From Kondoa malvinella (taxonomy: Eukaryota; Basidiomycota; Agaricostilbomycetes; Agaricostilbales; Kondoaceae), in assembly GCA_039545315.1 (NCBI GenBank), contig BCIM01000002.1, positions 1,898,331 through 1,962,330 on the forward strand: a DNA stretch of 64,000 nucleotides. Direction: 5' to 3'. The notes under the pieces were generated by a model, which was given only the letters and a program-made list of their open reading frames with translations, had not been told where the DNA came from and made no database searches. A program made the translations under genes and the position numbers. Position 1 is the first letter of the stretch. Each line of letters begins with the position of its first letter. Below are positions 380 through 34,472 of the stretch, piece by piece.

Positions 380-3300
380 TTATTGTATTACAAGACTACT
401 CGTCCGCTTTTCGTGAGCTCTTCGAGTGATCGACAGATCCCTATTGTTACATGCTTCGATTGCCCTTGGATACTTGTTCCGCAACTCGTCAACCGATCCT
501 ATACGTCCAGACTTGCTATTGATTGCGTCCGCCAACATGTCGAGTGTCTGCCGATAGACTGCAAAGGAATCAGGATCTTCCACCTTGAACAGAGAATTGG
601 AGTTTGTGCGATATTCCGCCACCTCGTGTAGAAGTTCTTCGCCTGTCTTGTCTTCCGCTTCCTCTGGAGCTTGGTCTCCCAGAAGTGGATCAAACAACTC
701 CCGGAGTCTACGCTTGCCGACGATTGGATCGGAAGGCTTTGAGGAATGGCTTTCTTCCGGTATCAGCACCGTTTCTACTATCCAGAGAGCGTGTTGAAGC
801 TGCTGCGCCCTGATAGTCGCTTGGCAAAGGTGATTCCAGTTGGCCGTGTCAAAACCAAAGCCACTGTCCTGCACTTGCACCCATCGGTCCACGATCTCGT
901 CGTGTCTGTCTACGCCGGCCAGAGCTTGGATGACAATTGATAGAGGCATGCAAAGCTGTCCGCCTCTGACTTGTATTGGTTCTGACGTCGAATCGCCTAT
1001 TGCTGCGGTGGAGAAGTCCTGACATGCACGCTCAAAGGTGGCATCCCAAATCTGCAATACCGCTTCAATGTTGCCTTCGCGCCTGTACGCATCCAACAGA
1101 GAGCTATACGCAATGATCGTTGGCTGCTCTCCTTGCTTGCCAATCCGCTCGAATATTCGCAAGGCGTTCGCAGCCTTCCGTGTCTTGGCATAGTGATGGA
1201 TGACCGGACCGAGCAAAGTGCTGTAAGCTTCTCGCTGATCTGCTGGCTTGTCGTGCCCCGGAGACAGTCTAGGTGCAGACCTCTTCGAGTATTGGGTGAT
1301 CACTTCTTCTGCCTCGTCCATGTTCGCGCCATCTTCGTCGTTCAGATAGGCATTGACGAGATTGGCCGCAAAGACAGACGTGTCTGCAAGATTTCGGCGC
1401 TGCATCTCACTGAGATATAGACCAGCTGCTTCTTTCTCTCCGTTGTCCAGGAAGGTCTTGATCATGATTGCAAAATGATGCGCGTTCAGTTGAACAAGAG
1501 ACTTGCTCTTATCGGCTTGGGCGAATATCGATTCTGCGGTTGCGATATGACCCCCTGAGGCTGCAGCTTGCAGTAAAGCAGAGATAGTCACTTGATCTGG
1601 CTGCATCTTCAGATCAGGAAGAGTTGAGACGATATCCAGTAGACGCTTGAAGGGCGCTCCAGACAGCATGAGGCACTTGAGAGCGACATTATATGCAGCG
1701 ATATCGGGCTTGAGTCGCGAACCGGGAGATTGACGCAATTGCTCAAAGATGTCCATCGCTTTGCTGTATTGATTGATGTTGACATAAACGGTCATCATAG
1801 TCGTCCACATGAACAGATCTACGTGGACACGCGCTGTTTGAGCTTTTGCAAAGAATTGCACCGCGCCATTCCAGTCGCCGCGTTTGACATATACTGAGAG
1901 CATTTGTGTCCAAATCTTTGGGTTATGTGGGACGATCTTGAGCTTGATCTGGGGCTGCTTGTTCATGTCCTCCCATAACTCCTCTGCTTTGCGCACGTCT
2001 GCCCGCTTGACCAATCCAGCCATAACTGCCAAATACCATCCGATCTGCCTGTCTGGAGGATATTCGCGCTGGAGGAGAACAAGCGCATCTTCAACCTGAT
2101 CGCGTTGAACTGATTCGCGGATAGCATCTAAAATGTTGCTGGAGCGAACCCTCTTTGAGTGTTCAACATCATTGGAGACCATGGTGTAAGCAGCAAGAGC
2201 AAGCTTTGGCCAGTGAGCGCCATAGTCTCTGAGTGCGGGTAGTGCATTGGCGCTGAATTTCAGAACTTGCCATGCTTCGCGATACTGGCCAACTTTGATG
2301 CGATTGTCTGCAAATGCTGTGGCTTCATTGGCGGGAATCCTTGATGGCGAAGGCAGTGGACTATCATCTTCTAAGCCTGTCGAAATAGCTAATGTCGCTG
2401 CGCGCGAATAACAATGACGCTGGCGAGCTGGTCGTTTGAGCGAGGGAACTTGAGCGCTGTCGAGAAGGGTATTGATGCAAGTTTGTGATTCGACGGGTAT
2501 TGTCTGGCCAAGCGTGTGACCTAACATGCGATATGGGAATACAGATGATGGTGTCTGACGATCGATGAGACTGTTCCAGACAAGAGAGAAGCCTTCTTTC
2601 TGAGCGGTGCTGAGATGGAGGTATTCGTACTTGGCATCGTGTCGAATAACGAATTGCCGCAGGTAATCTTCTGGGGAGCAAGAGAAGCTGGCTTCTTGAA
2701 AGATCATCAACGAGTCTTCTTTTGAACATCGGAGAAAGAACAGTCGTGTCATTTCTTGTACTCGTTCGACATATGGCCGACGTGATTTCCACTGGTTTCC
2801 GGAGAATCGAATGGAGCTTTGAAGCAAGAGGCGTTGTAGAGTTTGGATTTCAGCTTCAGTCTGATTGAGTGGTCGCCTCGTCGGGTCTTGCAACGATAGG
2901 AGAAATGTGCAAGCATCTTGTACGCGACTGCTGATCGATGGATCGCTGCAGCAGAGTGGGCGTGTCTTTGCCAACAGGGTCTGTAAGAATCGCGTTCGAC
3001 TGGCTGGAGAGCGATCGCTGTTTTTATAGATGACATGCTGATCTTCGAAGACGTCTAGATTATGTACTTGCGCTGCCAGAGGGGTCTGTGTCGCATCGAA
3101 GGGGATACCGACAGGCGTAGACGACAAGGCATCAGAAAAGTCGGCACACTCTGGAAAGGGTTGCCTAATGACTGCTTGCTGCGAAGTATTTGTAGCTACC
3201 GAGAAAGATGCCGTCTGATTGATGTGGTCATTGGGACGAGTACCGATGCTCTTGGGGTGTCTATCGAAAGGCAATCTTCCAGACAGATAGCTGAACGATT

Positions 3301-3709
3301 GATGCGTTTGGCCGCTCGAACATGCCTTGAGGGCATTCCAGCTCTTGCTGCACTCGACTTTGAAGTCTTTATAGGAAGGTCGAAAGTACGATGGCCGTAT
3401 AGATTCGTGATAGGCGTAGCGAGTGTAGACTGGCAGTGGAAAGACAGAGGGAGGTAAGAGAAAGTCGAGAAAGATGCCATCTCGTGACACTGAAGCTGGA
3501 GTTGCACAATAGGTGGAGGCTGACGCTCTGAAGGAATTCGAGGTTGAAGATTTGCCAAAGTTGAGCAACAGGTCACGGATGGAATGACTCCGCTGTTGGC
3601 CAGTGCGCATGTGCTTGCCTGTACATGCTGATGAGCTGCCATTGCTGCTGCAGTCAATAGGCGAGCTTACCGTGCCGTCCTCGAGTTCATGCGTCCGATA
3701 GATCGACAA
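380..3709 (-). CDS. pentatricopeptide repeat (PPR) protein, probably mitochondrial
   Basis: One uninterrupted reading frame of up to 1109 codons. From about residue 540 to 900 it is made of helical pairs spaced about 35 residues apart, with typical PPR wording such as WTQMLSVYVKRGDWNGAVQ, DLFMWTTMMTVYVNINQYSK and KPDIAAYNVALKCLM. PPR proteins bind organellar RNA and act in its maturation or translation. The first ATG gives an acidic start; the next in-frame Met (residue 34, near base 3610) is followed by a Ser/Arg-rich, acid-poor stretch that looks more like a mitochondrial presequence, so that start may be used. Which RNA it binds cannot be told. It lacks introns, unusual beside its neighbours. 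Its 3' end converges closely on the GID7 gene. Confidence 0.8.
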   Translation of the reverse strand: MSIYRTHELEDGTVSSPIDCSSNGSSSACTGKHMRTGQQRSHSIRDLLLNFGKSSTSNSFRASASTYCATPASVSRDGIFLDFLLPPSVFPLPVYTRYAYHESIRPSYFRPSYKDFKVECSKSWNALKACSSGQTHQSFSYLSGRLPFDRHPKSIGTRPNDHINQTASFSVATNTSQQAVIRQPFPECADFSDALSSTPVGIPFDATQTPLAAQVHNLDVFEDQHVIYKNSDRSPASRTRFLQTLLAKTRPLCCSDPSISSRVQDACTFLLSLQDPTRRPLNQTEAEIQTLQRLLLQSSIRFSGNQWKSRRPYVERVQEMTRLFFLRCSKEDSLMIFQEASFSCSPEDYLRQFVIRHDAKYEYLHLSTAQKEGFSLVWNSLIDRQTPSSVFPYRMLGHTLGQTIPVESQTCINTLLDSAQVPSLKRPARQRHCYSRAATLAISTGLEDDSPLPSPSRIPANEATAFADNRIKVGQYREAWQVLKFSANALPALRDYGAHWPKLALAAYTMVSNDVEHSKRVRSSNILDAIRESVQRDQVEDALVLLQREYPPDRQIGWYLAVMAGLVKRADVRKAEELWEDMNKQPQIKLKIVPHNPKIWTQMLSVYVKRGDWNGAVQFFAKAQTARVHVDLFMWTTMMTVYVNINQYSKAMDIFEQLRQSPGSRLKPDIAAYNVALKCLMLSGAPFKRLLDIVSTLPDLKMQPDQVTISALLQAAASGGHIATAESIFAQADKSKSLVQLNAHHFAIMIKTFLDNGEKEAAGLYLSEMQRRNLADTSVFAANLVNAYLNDEDGANMDEAEEVITQYSKRSAPRLSPGHDKPADQREAYSTLLGPVIHHYAKTRKAANALRIFERIGKQGEQPTIIAYSSLLDAYRREGNIEAVLQIWDATFERACQDFSTAAIGDSTSEPIQVRGGQLCMPLSIVIQALAGVDRHDEIVDRWVQVQDSGFGFDTANWNHLCQATIRAQQLQHALWIVETVLIPEESHSSKPSDPIVGKRRLRELFDPLLGDQAPEEAEDKTGEELLHEVAEYRTNSNSLFKVEDPDSFAVYRQTLDMLADAINSKSGRIGSVDELRNKYPRAIEACNNRDLSITRRAHEKRTSSLVIQ

Positions 3710-3956
3710 CGATTTTGGCCCCTTTGTTCTCTTGCAGCTAGCCTGAACACAGGTTATGTGAGCTTCCTAGCCATTGGAAGGACCTGCATCAGCTTACGAT
3801 ACAGAATGCTTTTCACTTCGATCGCCGCTGCAGCTCAAGACTTGGACACAAGATTCTTGACGAAGTGATGTCAAGGTCTCGGATAGGTTGCGACATAAAT
3901 CCATTTCTATCAACAGCCCTTGTACAAACATTCCAAATCTAAACACTTGTAGCTCT

Positions 3957-17084: not shown

Positions 17085-19131
17085 ATGTCTTCATTCACAC
17101 TCGATCGAGAACATGTCGGATCTCTGCTGTCCTATCAGAAACTTTTGCTGGTTCTGACTCTTCCCGCTCTTCTGTCATGGGCGGTCCTGCTCTTCAAGTA
17201 CAGACAACTCTCGCGCTTTCCCCCTGCCAACGCGCTTTCTGCTACAAGTCCCTTTTGGCTACTTTGGCAGGCGAGGAAAGCCCGACGATCAGCAGCTGTT
17301 ATGGACTTGCACCAGAAGACAGGCTCAGACTTTGTTCGGCTTACTCAGCGCCATGTGTCTATCGCTAGACGCGAAGCCGTTGCTCCTATATATGGTCACT
17401 CGAGCGGCCTGATGAAGAGTGGATTCTATGATGCATTTGAGGCGTACGTTCGCCTGTCTACTGCTTCCTCTCGTTTACTAACCCGTCGGATAGCGTCAAT
17501 CCTGCTCTCTTCCCTACACGCAATAGGTCTATTCATGCTAGGAAGCGCAAGATGTTTAACCCAGCCTTCTCGAACAAAAGTCAGTTTCGCTTTAAGTCCA
17601 TTCGTTGTCAAAGGCTCATTGGGGATGATCTTAACAGGTCTCCTCGAGTTCGAAGAATTCATGAACAGCGATATAGGCAATCTTTCTATCGCCTTCACCA
17701 AGATCAGCAAATCTAGGTGGGCCTTCTTCAGTCTGGTAGCTTCTCGCGGAGCTGATAGGCTATGCCAGCAACCCAGAACTCAACTTTGTCGACTGGTCTA
17801 ACTTCTTGGCATTTGATGTGATTGGCAACCTGGCTTTTGGTGCCAACTTTGGCTTTGTCAACAGTGGTCGAGATGATCTTGGCTTGATTCACATTCTCGT
17901 ATGAGACCTTCCTTTGCATTACAGCAGTCTCTCATCTGTTCATAGGACACCCGAGGCGAATACAACTCGGCTCTAGGCGTCATACCATGGATCAAGCCAT
18001 ATATCAAACGATCTCCTTTAATGCTTGACGGGTTTTGGTCAGTCTGTCGGACGAAAGGCGTTGCATCAGCTGACAACCATAACTAGGCGTCAAGGCTTGA
18101 GCTCGCTTGCTACGCTTGAGGTATACGGCAGAGCCCGACTGGCCGAAAGACAAGCTTCGAAAACAGCCTCAGATAGGCGTGATCTGTTTTGGTATCTTTT
18201 GAACAGCAAAGATGGTACGCTGGCAGTATCTATTGCTGAAAATCTAGTCTGACCGAACCTCAGAGGATGGCAAGCCTATTTCGCAGCAAGAGCTGGTTGC
18301 AGAGGCCATTTCATTCAGTCTGTTTGCTCAGTATCGGTTCTCTGAAATCATGCTGACGCAATGAACAGTCGTCGGTGGCTCTGACACGAGTGAGTCTCCT
18401 TTGACCGCCTTTTATGTAGCTAAGGTCTATCGCAGCTTCGACGACCATGACCCATTTCGTCCACGAACTCGTCAAGAACCCAAAAGCCGCTGCAAAATTG
18501 TATGCCGAAATTGACAGCTTCTTTGATTCGGAAGAACGCTCTTCGCCAGACTTTGTCGCTGGCTGGGAAGTCGTATCGAAGATGCCTTATCTAGAGGCTT
18601 TCCTGAATGAAACTATGCGGGTCTGTCCGACCAGCGCTGTAGGTCTAGAGCGGATCGTGCCAGCTGGTGGTAAGGTGTTTGCGGGCGAGCACTTTGAGGA
18701 AGGCGTGAGTCACATTGCTCATCACATTGCGCTCTAACGCTGACCCTATTCTGGCTTCAGACCATCGTCTCGGTTCCGACCAATGTTTTGCATCTTGATC
18801 CTTGCTTCGGCGACAATGTCGAGGCCTTCAACCCGGACCGTTGGATCAATGTCTCGCCTGACCAAAAACAAGACATGCTGGCTTGCTTCCAGCCTTTCTC
18901 GACTGGGCCTCGCGCCTGTATTGGCAGAAAGTGAGATGCTCTCTCTAATGTTCCTGCGACTCGTACTTATCGGCCGGTAGTGTTGCCTGGATGGAAATGA
19001 AGAAGGCTTTGGTCACAGTGATGAGCAAGTTTACCGTCGAGAAAGGTCCCTCTTATGGCACGCCGGAGTATCGCGAAGGGTTCTTTGTCAAGCTGGTCTC
19101 GCTGCCGCTTGTGTTGAAGGCTCGTATCTGA
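17085..19131 (+). CDS. cytochrome P450 monooxygenase
   Basis: Eleven exons: 17085-17443, 17494-17579, 17638-17716, 17769-17898, 17946-18037, 18087-18214, 18264-18317, 18369-18389, 18436-18704, 18761-18930 and 18981-19131; 512 residues. An N-terminal membrane anchor (LLVLTLPALLSWAVLLF) places it on the ER. P450 landmarks are all present: KRKMFNPAFS (C-helix region), the I-helix oxygen pocket VGGSDTTSTT, ExxR in FLNETMRVCP, FNPDRW, and the heme loop FSTGPRACIGRN with the Cys ligand. It is convergent with, and 240 bases from, the gentisate dioxygenase gene, so it may prepare an aromatic substrate for that pathway. The CYP family cannot be fixed by eye. Confidence 0.92.
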
Positions 19132-19371
19132 AGTATATAGCTCCAATGTAATGATCTAACTGTGCATACCATCACTGGTTCCAATCAGCTTATGACTTAC
19201 CTTTAGCTCTGATCAAGGCTTTTTGGTAACATGGGATTGTTTTGAGCAAGAGGATCAGTTGGCTCCTTTAGCCTGGAGAAGCAGCGCAATCGAGACGAGT
19301 CTCGTGCCAAGCAAGCAAGAAAAGACAACAAATATAGGTACATTACAGCAGTAAAAGCTCCCGTGGATCCT

Positions 19372-20601
19372 TCACGGCATAGCATACCAGTCATCCTTTG
19401 CAGTGCGGTAAAAGCCCAAGGCCGAAAGCATTGGGTAGTCATCGAAGCGATACAGATAGACGTCGTCTTCTCCGTTGGCAAAGTGAGTGTATGGCTTCCA
19501 GGCCGGAATACAGAAAGCTGAGCGGATCATCAGTGCTGGCAGAACCGCTTGAGGCGTGACCTACTATCGCCCTGCTTCCAATCGAGTGTTACATCGCCAA
19601 CCTGAGAGCGACCAGTGCCCGAGACAATGTGATAGACCATGCTAAGAGTCTCTTGGCGTTCTTGTCTATTGCGAATCATCAGACACTGGACTGAATCAGA
19701 CAAGAACACGAACGATTGCTTGCCAGCGTTGATACGCTCGGCTTGCGCACCGATGACCTTGGAGACTTCGCCATTTGGTCCAGCGTTAGGCGTAGTAGGT
19801 TTGGCAGTGTAGCGTGAGACGGCCCAATCATCCTTGATGGCATCGAGTTTGGCCTGCGTTTCACGCCAAGGGAAAAGAATGTCTGAAGTCTCCTGAGGTT
19901 CAGCTGGATAGCGAGGCTTATCGTAGTGCTGGACGAAATGACAAGGGAAATGTTGCCATTGAGGAAGGTCGAGACCGTCAAGCCAAATCATTGGACCGTC
20001 GCCGTCAGATCCATGGTCATCTGGCAAGGGAATAAGCTTTGCTTCAATGCGAAGGATTGGCAGTACGATAGTTCCAGGTTGGCGTCAGAATGACGTCTCC
20101 TCTTTGCATGTTGATGCGTTTTCCATGCACAGCGGTCCAACCCTTCTGGCCTTCGACAATGAACCGCATGGCATAAGCGCTATGACGATGGGCAGGCGCT
20201 GTCTCTCCAGGCATGACTACAGCAGCTTTCAGCTATCCAAGGACTTTACGTGTAGCAGGCTCTCTTACCCAATTGCAAACCAGCATACAGAGTATCGGTA
20301 GTCATGGGAGCCTCCGCAGCAGGGTTGATGAGCATGAGAACTCTTCGCTCTGCTTGCTTTTCAGTGACTTCATGTCCAGCCCGAATGAGCAATGGCCTGA
20401 TCTTGTCGTATTGCCAAACATCTATGATCAACATGAGTCCAGCTTGGTAATTCAAGGTTGTGACATACGAGGAACTGTCTTGGGACTAGGTACGGGAGGA
20501 TTCAGCTTTGCCATCTTGGTCCATAACGCCTCGACATTGAGCTGAGGCATTTGCTCCAAAAGATCATTGGAAAGACCAGAGTTTCCGTTCACAGCAGTCA
20601 T
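19372..20601 (-). CDS. gentisate 1,2-dioxygenase family (bicupin ring-cleavage dioxygenase)
   Basis: Five exons: 20469-20601, 20269-20421, 20067-20216, 19565-20020 and 19372-19517; 345 residues, as in the family. The first cupin shows AERRVLMLINP, LYAGLQLVMPGETAPAHRHS (iron-binding His pair), AMRFIVEG and GDVILTPTWNYHDHG. SDGDGPMIWLDGLDLPQW follows. The second cupin ends DTFCIPAWKPYTHFAN and LGFYR. The enzyme inserts O2 into gentisate between the carboxylated and adjacent hydroxylated carbons to give maleylpyruvate. Related members use salicylate or 1-hydroxy-2-naphthoate, so substrate is not certain from sequence, but the monooxygenase, FAH-family hydrolase and transporter nearby favour gentisate. 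It is divergent from the Zn2Cys6 gene. Confidence 0.88.
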
Positions 20602-21105
20602 ATTGTAGGTATACAGACCGAATGCAAGAAAGACTGCAAGTAAGCCTTTCGTGAAGGCCTGGGGCAGTCCCGACGGTGCCCCGATACGGACGTGAGCGGA
20701 TGAAGAGAGCCCGCGGCAATTGCGGATAGCGTATAGATCTTCATATTTATCGCTCAGGACCAAGTACTTCAGCCAAAAGACGGCCAGAGCAGATCTCGAG
20801 AATGTGATGGCAATGATTGCATTCAGCTATACTGAATAGTGAAATGTTGATCTTTGACAATGCGTTCGCAAGCAGCAAACGAATATACAGAATCGCTTGA
20901 GACCAGTGCCACGCTGTGTAGCGCACAGCGGACAGTGGCTTCCACTTGCGTTAACGCCAGGATGTTATGTTTTTCCCGAGCGGGAATACAGCTATAACGC
21001 AGGTTGCTGTCTTGCTGTTGACAAGAGCCGCCGTACAAACAAGTCCGCTCCTTGTGATGTGACCGCGCGGATAAGCAGAAGACGCTGTACAACTTCAAGG
21101 ACATC
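20602..21105. promoter_or_regulatory. divergent promoter, gentisate dioxygenase / Zn2Cys6 regulator
   Basis: About 500 bases between two divergent starts. It contains CCGACGGTGCC at 20680-20690, directly followed by the inverted-triplet CCGATACGG at 20691-20699, and CCCGAGCGGG at 20975-20984. Paired CCG/CGG triplets are what Zn2Cys6 proteins usually contact. The first motif differs at two positions from the repeated CCGAGGATGCC in the hydrolase/monooxygenase promoter. Binding is inference. Confidence 0.4.
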
Positions 21106-23518
21106 ATGTCTGATATTCAGCTCGGAGCAAGCGAGCAAGGCAACAACAACAATAATGGAGCTCCGCCTGCAAAGCGTAGGCGGACTGGACTGGCTTGTAC
21201 TATCTGTCGACAACGAAAGACGTCAGTAAGTTTTGGCAGCTTCACTGCATGTAGGCTTACATGCTTTGAAGGAAATGTGACGGCGCGCAGCCGCAATGCT
21301 CCTCTTGTCAATATCTCGATCTTGATTGCTCATACGGAGGGTCAACGCAAGGTAGCAAGCTCCAGAGCGTGATTGTCAAGCACGAGTGAGTTGTGCTGCT
21401 CTGGCCAGATGCTGTTCAACTGAATATCGTCAATCAGGGACTATGTCGATCTCCAGAGACGCCTTGCCATAGTCGAGAAGAAGCTCTCTCATTTACCTGA
21501 GCCGGCTCTTAGCCAGAGCTCGTCTGCGGCACAAGCGCATACCTTGTCAGTCAGCCCTACAAACAGCACTCAGGCCGTTTCCAGTATGGACGCTATGGGC
21601 AACCTGCTTAGAGTGGCATCGCACGATTGTCCACTACCGGAATCCTCTCCAGCCGCACTGTCGAATTCGATCTTGAATGCGCTACATGTTACGACCGGCA
21701 GCGACGGGCTAGTGGTGTCAAATACACCTACTTCCTTGCACCACGCGCGGTCAATAGCGAATACATTCGACGCCCTGACAGCTGCTCTACCTTCTCTTGA
21801 CCAAGGAGTGGCCATGTTGGACAAATTTCGATCAATGACCTGGGCGCTCTATCCTTTTGTGCATGTGCAGACTGTTGTCGGGCATTACCAGCGAATCATG
21901 GCTATCCCAGAGCCGAGGCAGACAAGCGGACTCGACATCAGCTGGCTAGGACTCATCTATGGCATATTTGCCTTAGTCTGTGGTGTGCAGTCGAGATTTG
22001 AAGAAGCCTCTGCCTTTTACGACCAGACTCTTCGTATATTGAATGTGGGGACTTTCGCGGAGAGGGACCATCTGCTTCAAGGTAAATAATTTCTTTTTTG
22101 CTGTCAGCTCAAGATTCGGAGTGATGTCCATAACAGTTCAAACCCTCCTTATTGCTGGGTTGTACACGCAAGGCCGGGCAACTAGTGAAGACGCATGGCA
22201 TCTCGTTGGTCGAGCGTCGAGAATCGCGATTGCCTTGCGCTATCATACCGGTCGACCGATCTTGCGTAACAATCACGAAAATGCGCAGCTGGCCGGTCGA
22301 ACCTGGATCGCTCTGTCTGTCATAGATAGCTTCATGTGTATGACATTGGGAAGGCCAGTATCAATACCACAACTAGCTGAACCGCCCATTCCGCCGGTGG
22401 CCTTTCCAGATGAATCGCAAAGTGACTTCGATTGCTTGCTTGCCAACAGGTGAGCTATTTTCGACATGGCATTGAGGAAGTCGTATCTAAGCCTCTTCAC
22501 AGCGGGCTGAGCCAAATCCTCCAACAGATCCTACAAGCCTTTTGGTCCGGAACAGCAGAATTTCGGCATGGTGCTCTGGCGGAAGACTTGGCTAGATGGT
22601 CTGAACAGCTACCTGCATCACTTCACGTGCCTTCAGACCCAGCTCTGGCCTCACAGATTGCACTCACCATTCGACTCAAACACCTCGCTGTTCGAATGCA
22701 GCTTTACAGACCTATCCTCTGTCGCTCAATCAATGACAAAGACCAACCTGCCGAACCAAGATTCCTCTTTGCTGACATCAATTCCAGCTTAGAAGAAAAC
22801 ACCATTCAAGGATTGGCATCTTGTAGTGTCGATGCCCTCGCGACTGTGCATATATTGCTCGGCACATGCACGGATACCCTTTGGCGCAAGACAGGCGCTT
22901 CCTGGTACAATTCATACGAGTTTCGAAGGACTACCATTCATGGATCATACAGGTTCCGGCTATTTTACGCTTTCAACGCCCTGAACGTCTTGGCTGGCTC
23001 GCTAGTGTGCAAGCAGCTAGATAGCGAAGCAATCGCTTTTCTACCAGGTGTTCCTTCGAGAGCAGATCGATTAGCAGCATGCCAAAGTTGTTTGACGGTT
23101 CTATATCACCTCACTCAGCATTCCGAAAACGCCGTCGGATGTTACGATATTGCTGCTAAACTGGTCAAGAGCATACAAGATGCTGACATCGGTACGTTAT
23201 GATTTATGCGCATCAGTTGCGCTTGTTCATTGGGTTTGCAGGAAGTAATCAGACAATGTCTTCTTCGCTGCTCGACGCTTTAGGCTGTTCCCAAGAATTG
23301 GACATCTGTGAGCCTCATGATGTGTTCTCGCTGATCTTGCCTGACATCTGGTAGCATCTTTCCTCAATTTGGATGGCGTATCAGATGTTCAACAATGGCA
23401 GCATGCTAGTTGTGAGTATCTTGTCGCCGGTCACTGCCGAAATGCTGATCTGCTCATAGTCGACATGCCTGACGCCCTCTGGGGATTAGCTACTGGAATT
23501 CAGAGCCAGTACAATTAA
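21106..23518 (+). CDS. Zn2Cys6 transcription factor with fungal-specific TF domain
   Basis: Eight exons: 21106-21221, 21272-21385, 21438-22081, 22137-22449, 22503-23191, 23242-23307, 23355-23411 and 23460-23518; 685 residues. After a short Asn-rich start and a basic KRRR patch, the zinc cluster CTICRQRKTKCDGAQPQCSS is completed by splicing, followed by CQYLDLDCSYG and a heptad-like linker (VDLQRRLAIVEKKLSHL) that may dimerise. The middle-homology domain is visible as AWHLVGRASRIAIALRYHTG and WIALSVIDSFMCMTLGRP. Its place in the middle of the aromatic catabolism genes, divergent from the dioxygenase, suggests it is the pathway activator; the inducer is unknown. The first acceptor is AAG rather than the common CAG/TAG. 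Confidence 0.9.
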
Positions 23519-23822
23519 ATGATTATATTTGTGAGTAGCCGGCCGCTAACAGGCTCAAACTGATTCAAACTGATAATTGTACACAGATTTGTCCAATCTG
23601 ACACTTGTCTACTTTTATCTGTGGATATTGCATACGGTTCCGTACACCAGCAACACTGCGTCACATCGCGTCACAACTCTATTGCCTTCGCGGTATCGTC
23701 GGCGTAGCTCGGTTGCGTCGGTTCCAAAACGTGGCTGCCTAATTTCGCGGAATTCTCGGTTCTCACAGGAGCCCCAGTTTCGTGTTGCCCTTTCAGTGCA
23801 CTCCAACTTGCCTTCAACTGTC
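23519..23822. other. intergenic, Zn2Cys6 regulator / MFS transporter
   Basis: About 300 bases upstream of the transporter start. It is rich in CGG triplets (for example CGGTATCGTCGGCG near 23690) that could be regulator sites, but no element matching the CGAGGATRCC repeat was found. Confidence 0.35.
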
Positions 23823-26166
23823 ATGGACGCATTGCAGTCCGAAGATCTCAAATCCAGCGGTGAGCACTTGGAGAAAGCACCGGTTGTCCCAACTTTGGCC
23901 CTGTCTACCGAGGAAAAGGCTCTTGAAAAGCGATTGATATGGAAGCTCGATCTGCTGCTGGTTCCCATCTGCTTCCTCTTGTGAGTGAGCATCGACAAGC
24001 ATGCAGCCACCGCCTGATAACACATCGTAGGTATATCTTCTGCTTCATTGATCGTACAAATATTGGCGTAAGTCTCTTGATCATCGGGTACAACACCCGT
24101 ATACTAACACTCGCGTTTAGAACGCCAGAATAGCTGGCCTTGAGAGGGATTTACAGCTTCAGGGCACGCAATACAACGTAGCCCTGACTGTGCGTTCGAG
24201 AGAAACTCACTAAAGGCGTTTTTACTAAATCTTGAGGCGTCTGTAGATCTTTTACATGTGAGCACTCTTCCGCGTCTCATGTATTCCAGAGGTTGACCTT
24301 GACTTGACAGCTTCTATATCCTCGTCGAGATTCCAAGTCAAATTGCTTTCAAGGTCGTCGGGGCTCGAATATGGATCACTGCGCTTGTTTTCGGTCAGCA
24401 TTATACCTGTCTAAGCAAGCCATTTCGAATGGCTCATGCCTACGCTGCCCATTACCTACAGGTTTCGGACTGGTCACTATGTGCACCGCTTTCATTACCA
24501 ACTACGGCGGTCTCATCGGAATCAGAATTCTGTTGGGGATCACGGAGGGCGGTAAGCAAGCAATCGCGCTTTCCTTGTTATATACCCTGAAATGGAAATC
24601 AGGGGTTATGCCAGCACTCTCATATCTCCTCACTCGCTACTATACGCGTGCAGAGCTGATGCTCAGAGTGTATGTTCCGCCTCTACTACAATTTGAGCTT
24701 TGCTGATTGCATCGCATCTACAGTGCAATCTTCGTCCAGGCAGCGACTCTCGCAGGGGCCATAGGTGGGTCAAACAGGCTATGTGGTGTCGCAGTCTAAT
24801 TGCTAGCATACAGGTGGCTTGCTTGCCTCTGGTTTTCTCGCGATAGGCGAAGTCACCAGCCAAATATATGGTTGGCGGAACATCGTTGGTCATTCAGTAA
24901 TGTCCAGATTTCCGAGTATCATTCTATCTGCAGTTTTTCTTTGAGGGAATTATGTCCATGGCTGTCGCCGTCGTTGGCTGGTTCATCATCGCAGATGAGC
25001 CGAGCAAGAATCGATGGCTGACTCCGGAAGAAGCATCTTTGGCTGAGCGCCGAGTACAGATGGAGCATTTAGGATCCTCGCAAGCATTGGTCGAGGCCTT
25101 CTCTTGGAAGCATGTCACTTCAGGGTCAGTCTCGTGCCTGCTTTTTTGCCCGCAATGTACTTATTGCGTGGCAGACTCGGCAACATTTTTGTCGTCACCA
25201 TGGGTATCATCTTCTCTCTTATCAACATCTCCGTGCAAGGGCTGTCCCTTTTTACTCCTGTGAGTAAGAGTCGACACGCGAAATCTTTGTGCTGATCTTT
25301 CATTGCAGACTGTCGTGCGAACGCTCTATCCTGGCCTTCCAGTAGTTCAACAGCAGCTAAGAACCAGCCCTCCCTATTTTGTTGGATTCTTCTTTGGCAT
25401 TGCCGAATCGTGGCTTATCACGCGATATGATCGTCGTTCCATTATTATGCTGCCTTGCTTGGCGCTCGCTATCATCGGATTTGCTAGTCAGTAGAGCAAC
25501 ATACCTTGTATTCGGGCTGTGTCTCACTCTTCTGACACTATGCAGTATTTTCGGCTACCGAACCTACCGCTACAGGTCCGCGCTTCGCTTCGCTGTTCTT
25601 AGGTATGTTTCCCATCCCGAGATCTGCTCTGTGCTAAAATGATGACTTTAGGCATATCTGGCGCGTTCCCGAGTAAGTTTGCATCTCTTGATTAGCTGCT
25701 TCGGTTTGCTCATACCAGTGCTTTCAGTTGGTCCTTTGGTGCTCGCCTGGTCCGGTAACAACACCCATCCCGACATGGCTAGAGGTATCGCCATGGCCAG
25801 CTGCGTCTGCATTGGTACTGTTGGAGCTGTAAGCAGACGCGCTGTTCTGTGCTTCTCTTGCTGATCAAGCTCGCAGGTGGTGGCGACCTGGTCTTTCCTT
25901 CCGTCTTTTGCTCCTACTTACCACAATGCTGCGTACATCAAGTAAGTGACTGCTCAGCTTACATGTCGGTGAGACACAGCTAATTTCAATGTAGCATCGG
26001 TTCAACGACCGGTGCTTTCCTGCTCATCGGGTTTGCTTGGTGGTACTGCAAGCGAGAGAATCGACTCCGCGACGAAGGCAAGCGCGATCATCGTCTTGTC
26101 GGCTTGAACCACGAACAGGCAATGGCTCTGGGTCACAGACACCCTCAATATCGCTACCGCTACTAA
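23823..26166 (+). CDS. MFS transporter, Dal5/TNA1-type anion:cation symporter family
   Basis: A multi-exon gene (about a dozen exons) joining to roughly 480 residues. A hydrophilic start (MDALQSEDLKSSGEHLEKAP) precedes KRLIWKLDLLLVPICFLL and the family hallmark YIFCFIDRTNIGNARIAGLE. Later pieces include RILLGITEGGVMPALSYLLT, a SQIYGWRNIFFFEGIMS loop, PSKNRWLTPEE between the two six-helix halves, and a C-terminal IGSTTGAFLLIGFAWWYCKR. Proteins of this type move organic anions such as allantoate, nicotinate and hydroxybenzoates with protons across the plasma membrane. Its cluster position points to a hydroxybenzoate or related acid. Exact exon borders were not all fixed. Confidence 0.85.
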
Positions 26167-26372
26167 AGGGGAATTTGTCTATCGACTGGTACATGGAAGA
26201 AAGGGCGCGACTGTGATGTACAGATATTCTTGGCCTATAGTGAAACGAGAGACTCGATTTGTTTGTACCTGTTTGGACCTTGCCTTGTCGAATGGGGCCG
26301 AGACTGAACAGTATACTCCGTGCAAAAGAGATATGACAAGTGGTATAGTACAAGGTGTGTCCGAATTGGCTT

Positions 26373-27788
26373 TCATTCATGAGCAAAAGTATTCTCCAAG
26401 ACCCCGATATTACTGATTTCAATTTCTACCTTGTCGCCAGGTTTAAGCCACTGCGGTTCGGGCTTCATTCCAAAGCCAACTCCGCCTAAGAATCGTTAGC
26501 ACGGCCGTCGATCTCGAGTATCAGTAGCGCTTACCTGGGGTACCAGTCATGATGACAGTTCCACTACCGCAGAAATTCAGTTTAGATGGAGAAAGGAAGA
26601 GTATTTGGCTCACGCTTCGAGAGTAGTTCCGGTACTGAGGAAAGAAACAAGCATGTCGGTAGGAAAACACAAGTCTCCGACAGAAGTATCTTGTCTGAGA
26701 TCTCCATTGACTTTAGTCGTCAATTGTAGGGCTTTCGGATCAGGTATGATCTAATCAACATCAGCTAACTTGATCAAGAGGACTGGAGCAGAAAAATACC
26801 TTGGTGCTGACGATAGCTGGGCCAATAGGTGCATAGCCGCTATCCAGAGCATTAGATGCGACGATCAACCCAGTCCGAGCATACTCACTCGAATCCCTTT
26901 GAGAAGGACCATTGTGGGACCACTCCCGCACTGTAGGTCATGAGTGGATACCTCGCGTAGCATACGATGAAAATTCACTAGCTTGGATCACGTTGCCAAA
27001 GCCTCGAGCTGACATCGTTACCGCTATATGTCATTATTAGCTTCGATCGCCGCTACAGCTACACAGGACTCACCATGTGTATCCAGCTACATAAGACATG
27101 GCATCTTCTCGTGAGATATTCTTGCCTGTCTTGCCGATCACGACGCAGAATTCCTAACGCCGCCGAAGTGAGATTATGATGAACGAGATGAATCAGCACT
27201 CACGCCTTCATAGTCAGTTTGAGGTGGATCTTGACAGATCTTGGGAATCTCGACTTGATGCTCTGGTCCAGCCAGACAGGTAGTGCTCTTCAGAAAGACT
27301 ATAACAACAGTCAGCCGTGCGTGATGGAATTACCATTCTTGGGCTCACTAGAAGGGTACGGGGGTAGCTTGCGTCCCTGCAGAAAGGATTAGCCCGAGCA
27401 CTGGCACATATAGCCGTGCCGACTGACAGCTTCGATGACTGGTGAAGGCAAGCGTCAACTCGCTTCGTTTCCAAGCTTTAGAGTAAGGCTCACTATGCTT
27501 CTTGTAGTTCAGACCAATGCATTTGATAGCAGGTACATCAGATCTCTGCAGAGGTGCTAGAAGTTTTGTGACAGTTTTGACTTCGTCTATCGACAGTCAT
27601 GCACAACTCCTCAGCGTTCATACCCTGTGCCTAAGGAATTCACTCTTACCTGTGACTACGGCATCCTGCTCGTCGAACACGGAATGCTTGAATTTGATGA
27701 CTTTGGCTTGCTTTAAAGTTGCATCAACAGCGTCGCCATATTGTTCGACGCCTTGCTCGTCTACGAATCTGATCAGTCTGGTCCACAT
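26373..27788 (-). CDS. FAH-family hydrolase, candidate fumarylpyruvate/maleylpyruvate hydrolase
   Basis: A multi-exon gene of about 300 codons. It begins MWTRLIRFVDEQGVEQYGDA and carries the fumarylacetoacetase C-terminal domain: CIGLNYKKH, RKLPPYP, FLKSTTCLAGP, DYEGEFCVVIGKTGKNIS, SYVAGYTVANDVSARGFG, the metal-site region GFDSYAPIGPAIVST, MLVSFLSTGTTLEAG and IMTGTPGGVGFGM. The acidic metal ligand in DYEGEF is present. Family enzymes split C-C bonds in acylpyruvates. In a gentisate route the step yields pyruvate plus fumarate or malate. One exon around 27400-27490 could not be placed with confidence. It converges with the transporter and shares a 143-base promoter with the monooxygenase gene. 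Confidence 0.85.
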
Positions 27789-27848
27789 CTTGTTGGTTTA
27801 ATACTTGCATCGCTCGCGAGCTGGCTTTCATTGCCCAGTCACTTGTTC

Positions 27849-27889
27849 CGAGGATACCGCGAGGATGCCGCTGGGTTTCCGAGGATGCC
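27849..27889. promoter_or_regulatory. three direct repeats of CGAGGATRCC in a shared promoter
   Basis: Copies at 27849-27858 (CGAGGATACC), 27860-27869 and 27880-27889 (both CGAGGATGCC), all in one orientation, with starts 11 and 20 bases apart, close to one and two helix turns. They lie in the 143-base gap between the divergent starts of the FAH-family hydrolase and the FAD monooxygenase. A likely operator for the cluster regulator; binding is inference. Confidence 0.5.
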
Positions 27890-27931
27890 TAGGCACTTGA
27901 CGCTTGCTGCTCTGCCTGACATCCCAACAAT

Positions 27932-29668
27932 ATGCCTCTATCTATTGTTGTAGTCGGTGCTGGACTTGGCGGTTTAGCGACTGCTATCACATGTCGACTT
28001 GCAGGTCATGACGGTAAGTTTGGTCGACAAGGTTTCCAAACGTAGCTCAAGACTGCTATAGTCACGGTACTGGAGCAGGCTCCTGCTTTGTCAGAGGTCG
28101 GAGCTGGTATCCAGGTGAGTCTCGTTGCAGGTTCTCAGAACGAGGCTGAAGGCTCTCTCTAGCTCATGCCCAATGTGTGTCTACCTCTTCTTGTGAGATC
28201 ATATACTAATTGAGTCTATAGATCACCAGGCTGCTCATCCGCTGGGGCATGGGAGATAGCTTGAAGCGCTTGGCCGTCTTTCCAAGAACGATTGACTTTC
28301 GCAGGTGGCAGAATGGACAAGTCGTTGGCCGTACAGCACTAGCTCCTGAACTTGAACGCGACTATGGTGCTCCTTATATGGTCTGCCATCGAGCTCACTT
28401 GCTCGAAGTTCTCAAAGACCGAGCGGATGAGCTCGGTGCACATGTGAGCTTCCATTGACAAGCCTGTCTCCCGAGGCTAAGAAACCTGTCAGATTCATCT
28501 CGGCCAAACTGTAACATCCTTGGAAGTCGCTCCTCTCCGCATTATTACATCGTCTGGTCGGATCGATACTCCAGATCTAGTCATCGGCGCAGATGGAATC
28601 AAATCAGCTACCAAAAAGCTCTTGTACGGCGAAAAGGATACTGGACCCAAGCAGACGCGCTTCTGTGCTTACCGAGCCACTGTTCCAGCTGAAGCTGTTT
28701 GTCCTTCATGCCTTGTCGCTACCGATAGCTGAAATTCCAGCAGATGATGGCAGACCCAGACCTAGCAAAGATCATAGACGACCCAGTCATCAACCTTTGG
28801 ATAGGCAAAGATCGACACGTCATGTCCTACCCCATCTCAGGCGGAAAGACTTTCAATATGGTACTTTCTCACCCTGCGCCGAAAGAAAAAGTTTGGGCTA
28901 CGGACGCAGCAACAGTCTTGCAGGAGATGCAGGATAATTATCAGGGTTGGGATCCTGTTCTAGTCAAGGTCATCAAGTTGGTAAAGAGCACGATGAGGTG
29001 GCCGCTCATGACATCGGACAAATTGGATACTTGGATCAATCCGGAGCGAAATTTTGCCTTGTTGGGAGATTCTTGTCATGCTATGGTCAGCCTATATCAT
29101 AGTACTCACGCTGATGCTGATCGCTTTTTCAGCTACCTTATATGTCATCAGGAGCGGGAATGGCGATAGAAGACGCAGCTGCTTTGGGCGTCGTTCTGGA
29201 ACCTCTGGCAAAGTCTAGCTCGACCAAATACAACCTTGCATCTGCGTTGGATCTGTACGAGAAGGCAAGAAAGGAGCGTGCATATGCTGTCGCGTATCGA
29301 AGCGAATTGAATGGACGGATATGGCATTGTGAGTCAGATGACCTGCGTTTTCGCCTGGCTGATCCTTCAAGCAGATCCTGACGGTGAGGCGCAACAAGCT
29401 AGAGATGAGGGTATGCGAGCATCTACTACTGGTGAACATTATCTGCGAAGGTTCGTTAAACCTATTCTTCCCGATGGGCTCTGATGGACAGTGACCGTAC
29501 AGCACGAACCAATGGTCAGACCCAGCGACACAACTATGGCTGTTTGGTCATGACGCTGAAAGTGCTACTCGAAAGCTGCTTCCGACTGCTAAAGTCAATG
29601 GCAGTCAGAATGGTCATCATGATGATGCGTCAGACATTGAGGAGATGAAGCAGGCTGGACTATTGTAA
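27932..29668 (+). CDS. FAD-dependent monooxygenase, salicylate / 3-hydroxybenzoate hydroxylase type
   Basis: A multi-exon gene of about 440 codons. It has the three group-A flavoprotein hydroxylase signatures: the dinucleotide fold VVVGAGLGGLATAITCRLAG with VLEQAPALSEVGAGIQ, the DG motif DLVIGADGIKSATKKLL, and the GD motif FALLGDSCHAMLPYMSSGAG. LLIRWGMGDSL, FRRWQNGQVVG and HRAHLLEVLKDRADELGAH also fit salicylate-hydroxylase-like enzymes. It would use NAD(P)H and O2 to hydroxylate a monohydroxybenzoate. With a gentisate dioxygenase in the cluster, 3-hydroxybenzoate 6-hydroxylation (or salicylate 5-hydroxylation) to gentisate is the most sensible reaction, but the substrate is inferred. The Asp/His-rich tail NGHHDDASDIEEMK is unusual. 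The start is the first ATG after the repeat-bearing promoter. Confidence 0.88.
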
Positions 29669-29768
29669 AGGGTTTCTGACGTCTTTGTGAATGCTCGTGG
29701 TACCGTGCGCGTGATCTGCCGCTTTGTTGCTCTCTCGCCACTGTTTCTGGCATTGGCCGGCATTTCGA

Positions 29769-31430
29769 ATGGTTGTCTCGTCACCAGCTTTCACCAAGAT
29801 GCTAAGCTCGTTGAGGCTGCAGCGTGATGCCAGCAGGTCTATCAGGCAATATTCGCACTGGAGTGGCTCGCATCGTTGGAATGACGGCCTCAATTTGAAA
29901 GGCAAAGCGGCCGCATCAAACATCAAGTCGTCAAAGTCCAAAGACAATTCTGGTGCAAGCACAGAAATCAACAACAAGGCAGAAGAGAGTGCAGAAACGC
30001 CGCAAGCTTCAACTTCAGCAATTACTTTGAATTCGTCCAACAAAGGCGAAGCGATCAATGCGAAAGGCAGCAACAGCGACCAGGCCTCGTCGTCGTCCTC
30101 TTCATCTCTGGCTGTGGATCAGAACAAGGAGCAGCGGCAGAAGCAACAGAAGAAACCTCATTTGCCAGCTGTTCCAGTTCTGCATGCACCTCCGACCCTT
30201 ATCGCCACGGATTCCCTCTTTGCTCAGCACCGGCCTTTGTTGGAAGTGCGCATACCAAAGAACAAGCGTCGAACTGCGACTGCTCATTCCCAGCAAGCAC
30301 CGCCAGAACAGCGGAATCCGTTTCTTGACGAACTCACCGGCCAATCAAATGATCCAGTCGAGAACCTTCAGCTTGGCCCGGTAGACACTCAGAACACTGC
30401 AGCAGCGAAATACCTCGCTACTCGTACCGCTTTCTCCCCTCCTTTGGCTCCTGAACCACCTGCGTCCGAACCTTCGACTAAAGACAAGGATCTCGCTTAC
30501 CTCTCTCCTTTCAGCAAACAAGCCGCCTTCAAGTCGAAATATCCTCAGTCACCGTCCTTCCTCGCTGGTCAATTCAGCTCTTTTCTGAAACGCGTCAATA
30601 GCAAGCTGAACACGGAAGAACAGCAAGCTTTGGACGCTTTCTTCCGGTCGAACGAACCGGTCGAGGATGCAGTCAAGCGACACAACGATAGTCGGTATGC
30701 CTCTACTAAGCACATCGAGGATGAAGGTTTCGCTGCGGCTATTGAAGCTGCCAAACACTTTATTTCCCTTTTACCGTCTATGGAAGTCCAAGGCGGCAAA
30801 GCTTATAGGCTCAACAAGTCGAATGATGGAGAATGGGTTGCAGAAGAGATGGATTCGTTTGCACCAGGCGAAATGCAATTAGGAGGTGAAGGATCAGCCG
30901 TTGCCTATGTTGAACAATTGCCAGAGGGTACTCCGCTGGTTGAAGAGGATGGAGTAGAGATTATCGACCTAACCAAGGCTGGCAATGGATCAGATCATCT
31001 CAATTCGATACTCGGCATGTTGCAAAAAGCGTTTGTTAAGCCTGGACAAGACAAGTCTTCGCAATTGAGCACGGAACAAATCATTTCAGACAACAAGTTG
31101 GCTTCGATACTGTTGGAAGATGGAGGTGTGCGAAAGCCGTCGGGCAATCGATTCCCTCTTGGACCGAGGAATTTGGCCAGAAGAGGTGTAAGATCGATAC
31201 CTGGGATGCACATAAACTTGGATAGTGTTAAGCGGAAGCGAAAGACAAAGGTCAGTTAGCTTTCTTCCTCTTCCTGTACTAGGAGCTGATGTTGTACCCG
31301 CCTAGATGAGCAAGCACAAGTCAGTCACTATCAGTTTGTCCTGTTTGGACTCGAGGCTTACCAGTGGTCTGACAGGTACAAGAAGCGTAGGAAGGCTCAA
31401 AAAGCAATCAGGCGTAGACAAGGAAAGTAA
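29769..31430 (+). CDS. COX24: mitochondrial small ribosomal subunit protein mS38 (COX24/AURKAIP1 family)
   Basis: Exons 29769-31250, 31306-31319 (14 bases) and 31376-31430; 516 residues. Recognition rests on the conserved C-terminus: SVKRKRKTKMSKHK joined to YKKRRKAQKAIRRRQGK across two introns, the hallmark of mS38, which binds at the decoding side of the mitoribosome and is needed for COX1 synthesis in yeast. The N-terminus has an Arg/Ser-rich presequence (LSSLRLQRDASRSIRQYSHW). A later in-frame ATG at 29799 is equally good for that. The long middle is a low-complexity Ser/Ala/Asn/Gln linker plus a globular segment. At over 500 residues it is much longer than yeast COX24 (about 110). Confidence 0.85.
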
Positions 31431-31918: not shown

Positions 31919-34472
31919 ATGGCCAGCGATTTGAGCATTGGACGATACCTGTTAGTCACCTGAGTGCTCCCTAAGCTTGGCTGATCGTGTCCGACTTCTG
32001 CAGACTTGAAAGAATTGCTAATCTCGGTAGTCAGCTTGTCTTGTTGGTACACCAGCTACAATCCGCTCATTTGTATTTTCATCTAGTTACCGCAATCTTT
32101 GGTGTTCCAGGAGACTTTAACCTCGCTTGTACGTCTCTAGCTGCAAACATAGCAGATGACCGAATGACGAAGTTGCAAAACAGTCCTGGACTTGATTGAA
32201 GAGCACCCAAAGCTTGAATGGATCGGTTGCTGGTGAGTTCATCCATGTGCACAAGCGAGCGAAAGCTGACCGAGGCGTCTTAGTAATGAGCTGAATGCTG
32301 CCTATGCGGCGTGAGCACTCTAGCTGATCTCAAAAGTTGAGCCTAATGTTCTGTGAACAGGGACGGCTATGCTCGAGTGCACGACACGCCTGGAGTCATG
32401 CTTTCGACCTTCGGCGTAGGCGAGCTCAGTGCAGTGTAAGCCTTTCTTTGGTAGCTGCTATACAGGCCTCGGTTGACATGTTGTAGCAATGGCATTGCTG
32501 GTTCATTCAGCGAGAGGATCCCTGTCATTCACCTAGTTGGAGTCCCATCAACTCAGTTACAAGCGCATAAAGCTCTGTTGCACCACACGCTCGGCGATGG
32601 TCGCTTCGATGCTTTCACAGCCATGGCCTCTCATGTCACCGCAGCTCAAGCTTTCCTTATTTCCGAGTCTTCCAATGGGAACGGCAGAAGTGCTACAGAA
32701 GAGATTGACCGCGTGCTGAAAGTCTGCGTTAAACAAGCTCGTCCTGTACGTCCTTTGGTCACGAGTTGTAGCTCTTGTGAATGTAGTGTCAGGTGTATAT
32801 CACACTCCCTACCGACCTTGTTTTCGCAAACACCAAAGGGGATGCCTTATCCACACCTTTGACTCGCGAATCTGTCCAAGAGGAGGTCAAGAAGGAGTCT
32901 GGGAATGCCAAGGTAGAAGGATTTCCTTTCTTTCCTGCGACTATACTGATTCTCGCCTGTTTGTAAGCTCGTCGACTTCGTGGTTGATCAGATCACCGAA
33001 CTGTACAAGAAAGCAGAAAAGCCAGTCATCCTGGTATGTCGTATTGTCTTCAAGATGGACCCTCCGACTTAGGCCTCCACAGATAGATGCATGTGCTGTG
33101 CGATACGGCGTTCAGGATCTGGCCCAAGAGCTCATTGAGGAAACCAACCTCCCCTTTTTTACGTCACCCATGGGAAAAAGTGCTATTGACGAAGAGCACC
33201 CAAACTTCAGCGGATGCTACATTGGCTCTGTTTCGGTCGACTCTGTCAAGGACCTTTTCGAAAGTGCCGACTTCGTCCTCAACATTGGCTCGCTAAAATC
33301 CGACTTCAACACTGGTTCTTTCGTGAGTACCGCTCCGATGCCAAAAATTTCAGCAATAAACCTTCGTTTAGAGCTACAAGATCAAGGAGGAGCATTCTAT
33401 CGAGCTCCATTCTGACCACACAAAAGTCCAATGTGAGCGTCTTCAGATCGGCTCGCTAACTTTCTAATATTGCGCAGATGCACAATATCCGGACCTCAGC
33501 TTCCATCTCCTACTTCCTCGATTGATCAAAGCTCTATCAAGCAGTCAGCCTAAAGGCAGACTAATACCTCTCAAAGGTGCCGGTCTGATTGCTGCACCTG
33601 CATCGATCAAGGGCGATGTGATTACTCAAAAGGACTTTTGGCCGACTGTCGCTACCGGATTGAAAAAAGGCGATGTGACAATTGCGGAAACCGGAACTTC
33701 TTCGTTTGGTATACTCGATGTACAGCTTCCACCTGGTACTACACATTGTAGTCAGGTCTTATGGGTATGCTCCTTATATTGAGCTAGCTGTGATCTGCTA
33801 AATCCTTTCAGGGCTCTATTGGATGGGCTACTGGCTGTGTGCTAGGTGCGAGCTACGCTGCGAAAGAGCTCAATCGTCGATGTATCCTCTTCACTGGTTG
33901 GTTTGATTTTTTCCATTTTCGATGTGACCCTGATAAAATCTGGCACAGGCGAGGGATCGGCACAAGAAACGATCCAAGACATCTCTACTGTTATCCGCTT
34001 AGGCCTGACGCCGATCCTCTTTGTGCTTAATAACAAAGTGAGTCGCTCTAGCAGCACCGCGCTCTATACTTATTCTCTTGCTCTTTCCCAGGGATACACA
34101 ATTGAACGCTTCATACACGGTCAGCCTAAGCAAGTTTTGATCTACACGAGCTGATAGTTCTTGCACGAGCAGGCAAAGAAGCAGCCTACAACGATGTTCC
34201 AAGTTGGCAATGGCAGCAATTGCTCTCAACGCTCGGCGCGAAAGAAGGACAAAGCAAGAGCTATTCCATCAGGACGCCCACTGAATTGCAAGAATTGCTC
34301 GCAAATGAAGAGTTCCAATCTGCGAAAGTGCTCCAGTTGGTCGAAGTCCATATGGATGCGCAAGATGCTCCTCGAGCTCTGCAATTGCAGGCTGCTTTAG
34401 TGCGTGTTCTTCTGGAGCCCATGTGATGTCTGCTCATGACTTGTATAGAGCGCCAAAGCGAATGACGGATAG
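31919..34472 (+). CDS. PDC1: pyruvate decarboxylase (thiamine diphosphate enzyme)
   Basis: A gene with about a dozen short introns joining to roughly 600 residues. The reading begins [11 protein letters not shown], then the PDC N-terminal domain [10 protein letters not shown] and [16 protein letters not shown] (catalytic Glu), [42 protein letters not shown] in the middle domain, [28 protein letters not shown], and the ThDP/Mg motif [14 protein letters not shown]...[13 protein letters not shown]. The motif has Glu where GDGS is the commonest form; a Glu there also occurs in fungal PDCs. It decarboxylates pyruvate to acetaldehyde in the cytosol. The C-terminus is SAKANDG. It lies just beyond the pyruvate-yielding aromatic cluster, perhaps by chance. 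Confidence 0.9.

Follow-up and report, generated by a model that had tools for sequence, protein, structure and literature searches.

Six adjacent genes on contig 2 of the Kondoa malvinella genome (19.09 Mb in 20 contigs as searched) probably constitute a fungal gentisate-like catabolic cluster, with an aromatic acid as its class of substrate. They fill positions 17085–29668 of the 64 kb stretch of DNA studied here, referred to throughout as the window, and encode, in order, a cytochrome P450, a ring-cleavage dioxygenase, a Zn2Cys6 transcription factor, an MFS transporter, an FAH-family hydrolase and an FAD monooxygenase. A gentisate-type aromatic-acid cluster in a probable basidiomycete had been proposed in the first-pass annotation of this DNA, and the relatives of the dioxygenase, the conserved residues and the ranking of curated models all support this. 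The reading rests on the gene structures, the protein families, the conserved residues, a recurrent linkage between dioxygenase and monooxygenase genes, and the finding of no isomerase in the cluster; from these data we infer the substrates, the order of the reactions and the regulation.

In the proposed pathway, the MFS permease would take up the aromatic acid, which the P450, the FAD monooxygenase or both would hydroxylate to gentisate (2,5-dihydroxybenzoate) or a closely related compound. In the likeliest order, ring hydroxylation or O-demethylation by the P450 would come first and yield a 3-hydroxybenzoate-type acid, to which the monooxygenase would then add the para hydroxyl. Ring opening by the bicupin dioxygenase would give maleylpyruvate, and the FAH-family hydrolase would split the acylpyruvate. 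Isomerisation may be spontaneous, may be performed by an unlinked glutathione transferase, or may not be needed, and the Zn2Cys6 protein would turn the genes on. Given so compact a cluster, and only one gentisate dioxygenase found in the genome, a clean deletion phenotype would be expected.

The gene models were spliced by hand from the sequence. They contain 56 introns of 44–68 nt, of which 55 are GT-AG and one is GC-AG, and there are no internal stops in any of the six coding sequences. The outer limits of the block are set by the start codon of the P450 gene (17085) and the end of the monooxygenase stop codon (29668). Each product matches a Pfam family, with E-values of 7.3e-60 (p450), 7.5e-23 (Cupin_2), 2.6e-10 (Zn_clus), 3.4e-31 (MFS_1), 1e-61 (FAA_hydrolase) and 4.3e-18 (FAD_binding_3). 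With these matches, and with intact spliced models reaching both ends, the earlier description of six adjacent genes of these families holds.

Dioxygenase and FAD monooxygenase

The gene at 19372–20601 on the minus strand (five exons, 345 residues) encodes a predicted bicupin gentisate 1,2-dioxygenase, an assignment drawn from Pfam, PDB and NCBIfam matches. Pfam recognises two Cupin_2 stretches in the protein, the top curated model is TIGR02272 (gentisate 1,2-dioxygenase, 254.9 bits, against 160.5 for 5-aminosalicylate 1,2-dioxygenase), and PDB chain 2d40, a putative gentisate dioxygenase, matches at 3.7e-61. A database search returned 1510 matches, the best 120 of which were listed; the best of these is about 60% identical and several are named gentisate 1,2-dioxygenase. 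A grouping with non-gentisate cupins had been set beforehand as a possible refutation of the cluster, and the relatives found are instead fungal gentisate dioxygenases. In a tree of 121 sequences (all trees were built with FastTree alone) the protein joins the listed Tremellomycete proteins and one unnamed metagenomic protein with support of 0.919. The cluster gene is the sole gentisate dioxygenase match found in the whole genome.

Alignment with the metal and active-site residues of salicylate 1,2-dioxygenase, whose numbering is that of the alignment, predicts His105, His107 and His146 as the iron ligands (His119, His121 and His160 in the reference enzyme). It also pairs Arg70, Arg113, His148 and Asp160 with Arg83, Arg127, His162 and Asp174. 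None of the seven mapped positions varies among 121 fungal sequences, made up of the window protein and the 120 listed homologues, and neither does Arg71 beside Arg70. The Gly106 position of the reference is likewise kept in the dioxygenase.

The FAD monooxygenase gene (27932–29668, plus strand; nine exons, 451 residues) encodes what we take to be a group-A flavoprotein aromatic monooxygenase, predicted to make gentisate. Its top curated model, 3-hydroxybenzoate 6-monooxygenase, scores 219.4 bits; the salicylate 1-monooxygenase model scores 154. The search scored 7999 candidates sharing most words, and the best 120 of 2214 matches were listed. The four best come from Cutaneotrichosporon (two), Naematelia and one Tremellales species, all Tremellomycetes, and in a tree of 121 sequences the protein joins the listed Tremellomycete proteins and two unnamed metagenomic proteins with support of 0.98. 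On the groupings of these two enzymes, the source fungus would be placed as a Tremellomycete or a relative.

Of three residues of the bacterial chain 4bjy taken as marks of 3-hydroxybenzoate 6-hydroxylase (3HB6H), the class of MNX2, His213 and Tyr217 are kept in the monooxygenase and in all 120 listed homologues, and the position of the third, Gln301, is occupied by Pro, again in the monooxygenase and in all 120. The residue following this Pro is Tyr in 114 of the listed homologues, Phe in four and Ser in two; Met-Ser comes next in every one, and after it Gln in 105, Glu in 14 and Ser in one. The motif reads PYMSSGA in the window protein, and its second Ser, Ser312 (29148–29150), stands where 119 of the 120 listed homologues have Gln or Glu.

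We regard the recurrent linkage to gentisate dioxygenase genes as the best evidence for the predicted role of the monooxygenase. When the two lists of 120 matches were compared, contigs of equal size being taken as one contig, dioxygenase and monooxygenase homologues lay on apparently the same contig in 30 pairs, among them those of Naematelia (108,716 bp contig) and Tremellales sp. Uapishka_1 (54,787 bp contig). With at least 30 such apparent pairs, the pairing of the two genes therefore recurs in other fungi.

Accessory genes, cytochrome P450 and genomic setting

The FAH-family gene (26373–27788, minus strand; 12 exons, 283 residues) encodes a predicted fumarylpyruvate or acylpyruvate hydrolase. 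Both the HxxE pair (His77/Glu80) and the E-E-D set (Glu121/Glu123/Asp152) are present, residues whose roles we take from the family. The first splice choice at the N-terminus broke the frame; an 11-nt microexon (27428–27438, minus strand) that encodes part of the HxxE motif repairs it and is backed by that motif. The MFS transporter (23823–26166, plus strand; 17 exons, 498 residues) scores 150.5 bits with TIGR00893 and 139.5 with HpaX, both of which we take to be models of anion:cation symporter (ACS) types, and 30.1 with the AAHS model TIGR00895. The family assigned in the first-pass annotation is confirmed, and the transporter is not of the HBT1 (AAHS) type, since the symporter-type models outscore TIGR00895.

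The Zn2Cys6 gene (21106–23518, plus strand; eight exons, 685 residues) encodes a protein with Cys31, Cys34, Cys41, Cys48, Cys51 and Cys58 in its zinc cluster and a Fungal_trans domain. A 143-bp stretch forms the promoter common to the FAH and monooxygenase genes and holds three exact copies of CGAGGATRCC (27849–27890), a sequence found nowhere else in the 64 kb. This triplet is a candidate site for the regulator, and is treated only as a lead because three copies of some 10-mer also turned up in 5 of 400 stretches of 143 bp drawn at random from the window. The Candida GTF1 and OTF1 sites were tried as promoter elements as well, and none was found in the cluster promoters.

The P450 gene (17085–19131, plus strand; 11 exons, 512 residues) encodes a protein with the heme ligand Cys459, the ExxR residues Glu375 and Arg378, and the I-helix Thr316. 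Its third intron (17707–17758, 52 nt) is the GC-AG one. An initial splice choice here broke the frame, which the GC donor restores, and the GC-donor model is supported because the junction aligns ungapped to the homolog P0241. Of 7998 candidates sharing most words, 196 passed as homologues; the best 120 were listed and 110 entered the tree, the remaining ten being too short.

In this tree the P450 joins 27 proteins, split from 83 others with support of 1.0. Twenty-six of these 27 companions among the listed matches are named, all of them ascomycete by name, and one is unnamed. The 83 others hold all eight proteins labelled basidiomycete and P0314 (CYP53A26), which serves as the CYP53 reference by name rather than by biochemistry. 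At 26 group-diagnostic positions the P450 matches the 27 at 17 and the 83 at three. In its I helix it has EAISFIVGGSDTTS, a sequence shared by 3 of the 27 clade members; 23 of the 27 have ESISFIVGGSDTTS, and 70 of the 83 others have EALTQLIAGSDTTS. The names do not follow this split cleanly, however, as among the 27 at least P0241 and P0249 are source-named 'Benzoate 4-monooxygenase'. A short Bisporella protein named benzoate-para-hydroxylase (P0343), too short for the tree, is 46% identical over 64% of the P450.

By name, the CYP53 benzoate 4-hydroxylases are the nearest characterised family, mostly 33–40% identical to the P450 over most of its length; the cluster P450 is set apart from them by its place in the opposite half of the tree and by residues in the I helix and elsewhere. 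A separate CYP53-type gene of this genome lies on contig 1 (2092760–2094240), possibly a benzoate 4-hydroxylase, whose protein is about 45% and 47% identical to CYP53-type proteins of Apiotrichum and Thecaphora, against 36% to the cluster P450. In view of this gene, the idea that the cluster P450 is simply the usual benzoate 4-hydroxylase of the genome was rejected. We suggest tentatively, as a proposal more likely wrong than right, that the P450 belongs to a CYP53-sister family making a 3-hydroxylated benzoate for gentisate, by benzoate meta-hydroxylation or 3-methoxybenzoate O-demethylation. If this were true, fungi including basidiomycetes would have, beside the usual 4-hydroxybenzoate route, a second one leading from benzoate or methoxybenzoate to gentisate, and the purpose of gentisate-like clusters would be accounted for. 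A literature search found no paper on O-demethylation by CYP53. The cluster P450, which can be told apart from the CYP53 of the genome, offers a testable clue to the acid that enters the pathway.

The six genes seem to form a block with definite limits, since none of the flanking open reading frames (ORFs) with a Pfam match (seven of the ten scanned, the other three giving no match) has an aromatic-catabolism family. Of the neighbours that could be identified, the nearest on the left is an HSP70-type gene and the nearest on the right a piece of a thiamine-pyrophosphate enzyme, with a MutL-type gene and a WDR36/Utp21-type gene further right. The enzyme piece is a central domain (32720–33415, plus strand), lies about 3 kb from the cluster and is probably unrelated to it. 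A 514-codon ORF with no Pfam match (29715–31259, plus strand) adjoins the cluster. Towards the other end of the window, an open frame of 1128 codons with pentatricopeptide repeats (380–3766, minus strand) stands in otherwise intron-rich surroundings. No GFA1-type gene was found in the window; the genome has seven matches to PF04828, which we take to be the GFA1 family. Intradiol ring-cleavage dioxygenases were found at two loci, on contig 2 (335395–336000) and contig 11 (733236–733585); the fungus may thus have a 3-oxoadipate-type route beside the gentisate cluster.

A recent transfer of the cluster from an ascomycete was considered and is unsupported. The GC content of the six genes (0.479–0.515) and their GC at third codon positions (GC3, 0.465–0.571) resemble those of three control ORFs in the window (0.501–0.509 and 0.442–0.553). 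Moreover, the dioxygenase and monooxygenase cluster with Tremellomycetes, and the P450 is sister to, and not nested in, the 27 others, a placement obtained by midpoint rooting and sensitive to the choice of root and to a long branch.

Counter-evidence and alternative readings

Several observations weigh against a gentisate-like cluster. The dioxygenase, at 254.9 bits, misses the TIGR02272 equivalog cut-off of 442.1 bits, NCBIfam models being bacterial and archaeal, and the position of Trp104 in salicylate 1,2-dioxygenase is Tyr in the window protein and in 119 of the 120 listed homologues (Phe in one). Neither monooxygenase model reaches its cut-off (219.4 of 459 bits for the better one), these models being built for prokaryotes, and the solved chains closest to the monooxygenase are decarboxylating 1-hydroxylases. 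The PDB matches of the FAH protein have mixed specificities, including the acylpyruvase FAHD1 and a putative fumarylpyruvate hydrolase, and the best of them, 8sky, carries a family name only. No maleylpyruvate isomerase was found in the cluster by a profile search of the genome, exon by exon, which a weak one may escape; the two TIGR01262 matches in the genome are both under the cut-off and both on other contigs. The GTF1 site GGAN7TCC occurs in none of the six intergenic stretches and seven times in the whole window. Two published clusters add to these points. In Scedosporium, all six genes of the cluster compared below are induced by lignin and all but the MFS gene by gentisate, which leaves the transporter gene without gentisate induction (PMC8283699). 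In Aspergillus terreus, a gentisate-like cluster is apparently unused for gentisate formed from salicylate (PMC7842363).

The true substrate might be a substituted gentisate, for example of plant phenolic or polyketide origin, which the cluster would detoxify, instead of supporting growth on plain gentisate, while the P450 trims or hydroxylates a side group. The lack of an isomerase gene found in the cluster fits such a role, the A. terreus data speak against the use of plain gentisate (PMC7842363), and FAMeDB suggests that the gentisate-like type may detoxify metabolites of gentisate derivatives, citing distinct properties of the dioxygenase (PMC13094099). Scedosporium, however, grows on gentisate, which induces its cluster (PMC8283699), and the dioxygenase residues mapped to the active site are the usual ones, so that we hold this explanation to be possible but rather improbable. 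We are more doubtful still that the P450 is a mere neighbour outside the pathway, which we consider unlikely. Among the matches listed, no protein named as Tremellomycete falls in the P450 clade, even though Tremellomycetes have the dioxygenase and the monooxygenase. Ten species, counted by eye, have a protein in the P450 clade and another in the dioxygenase or monooxygenase list (12 unnamed rows of the 120 P450 matches were omitted), and in seven of them the P450 is apparently on another contig. In the other three (Rhexocercosporidium, Aspergillus pseudonomiae and Mytilinidion) it apparently shares the contig with one of those two genes; here it lies 240 bp from the dioxygenase gene, inside the block, and the Scedosporium P450 is both clustered and induced (PMC8283699).

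Two further alternatives concern the hydroxylation step. Production of gentisate from salicylate, with the FAD monooxygenase or the P450 acting as a salicylate 5-hydroxylase, would agree with the many listed monooxygenase homologues named salicylate hydroxylase and with the name sahG that Greene et al. gave a clustered gene (PMC3914699). We judge it quite unlikely, as the 3-hydroxybenzoate 6-monooxygenase model outranks that of salicylate 1-monooxygenase, in A. terreus the monooxygenase of the cluster showed no early upregulation on salicylate, and according to the same paper a fungal salicylate 5-monooxygenase had not been reported (PMC7842363). The nearest solved chains to the monooxygenase are 8gsm (310 bits), named 4-hydroxybenzoate decarboxylase, and 8x38 (307 bits), named decarboxylative vanillate 1-hydroxylase, followed by 8r2t (an unnamed FAD protein) and bacterial chains. 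These chains suggest a decarboxylating 1-hydroxylase of the 4-hydroxybenzoate or vanillate type that would not supply the dioxygenase, and the Scedosporium cluster monooxygenase was placed near 4-hydroxybenzoate 1-hydroxylases, in a decarboxylating clade (PMC8283699). The ranking of structures is weak because none of the solved chains was recognised as an MNX2 entry. In addition, P[YFS] is followed by Met-Ser in all 120 listed homologues, at a place where the sequence is PYLAQ in 8gsm and PYRAQ in 8x38, and the linkage of the monooxygenase gene to that of a gentisate dioxygenase recurs, which together make a decarboxylating enzyme very unlikely.

Relation to known gentisate and gentisate-like clusters

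The proposed gentisate-like cluster of K. malvinella has, by comparison with the published component list, the same six components as that of Scedosporium apiospermum/aurantiacum (MFS, P450, gentisate dioxygenase, monooxygenase, FAH and Zn2Cys6; PMC8283699), whose host is an ascomycete. With the Candida parapsilosis cluster MNX2-HBT1-GDX1-FPH1-GFA1-GTF1, in which the Zn2Cys6 protein GTF1 is the activator (PMC8929692), it shares, by prediction, the core reactions and a Zn2Cys6 activator gene within the cluster. It differs in having a P450 and no GFA1-type gene, in lacking the GTF1 site in its intergenic stretches, and in an ACS-like transporter where the C. parapsilosis HBT transporters belong to the AAHS family (PMC5566891). 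The P450 and the dedicated Zn2Cys6 gene had been regarded in the first-pass annotation as an apparently distinguishing addition. This view has to be given up, as C. parapsilosis has GTF1 (PMC8929692) and Scedosporium has both genes (PMC8283699), and the same reports rule out the pair as a new composition. The literature, as judged on titles and abstract openings, yielded no account of a basidiomycete gentisate cluster that includes a P450.

Gentisate catabolism clusters in ascomycetes were described by Greene et al. (PMC3914699), and Martins et al. divide gentisate from gentisate-like clusters by the presence of a maleylpyruvate isomerase gene (PMC7842363). The K. malvinella cluster lacks the clustered isomerase of the canonical type, as far as our search could find, and falls on the isomerase-less, gentisate-like side, with dioxygenase, FAD monooxygenase and FAH genes clustered together with Zn2Cys6 and MFS genes. 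FAMeDB records isomerase-less gentisate-like clusters in Basidiomycota and calls their role unclear (PMC13094099). Such clusters occur in many fungi, and their natural substrate is unsettled in both papers (PMC7842363, PMC13094099). The A. fumigatus type has stilbene dioxygenase and aldehyde dehydrogenase genes that are not among the six here, and no P450 is listed among its genes. The dioxygenase, FAD monooxygenase, FAH hydrolase, C6 factor and MFS transporter are all shared with the gentisate-like or gentisate catabolism clusters of Pezizomycotina (PMC7842363, PMC3914699). Judged from its sequence, the cluster is a further member of this known gentisate-like kind.

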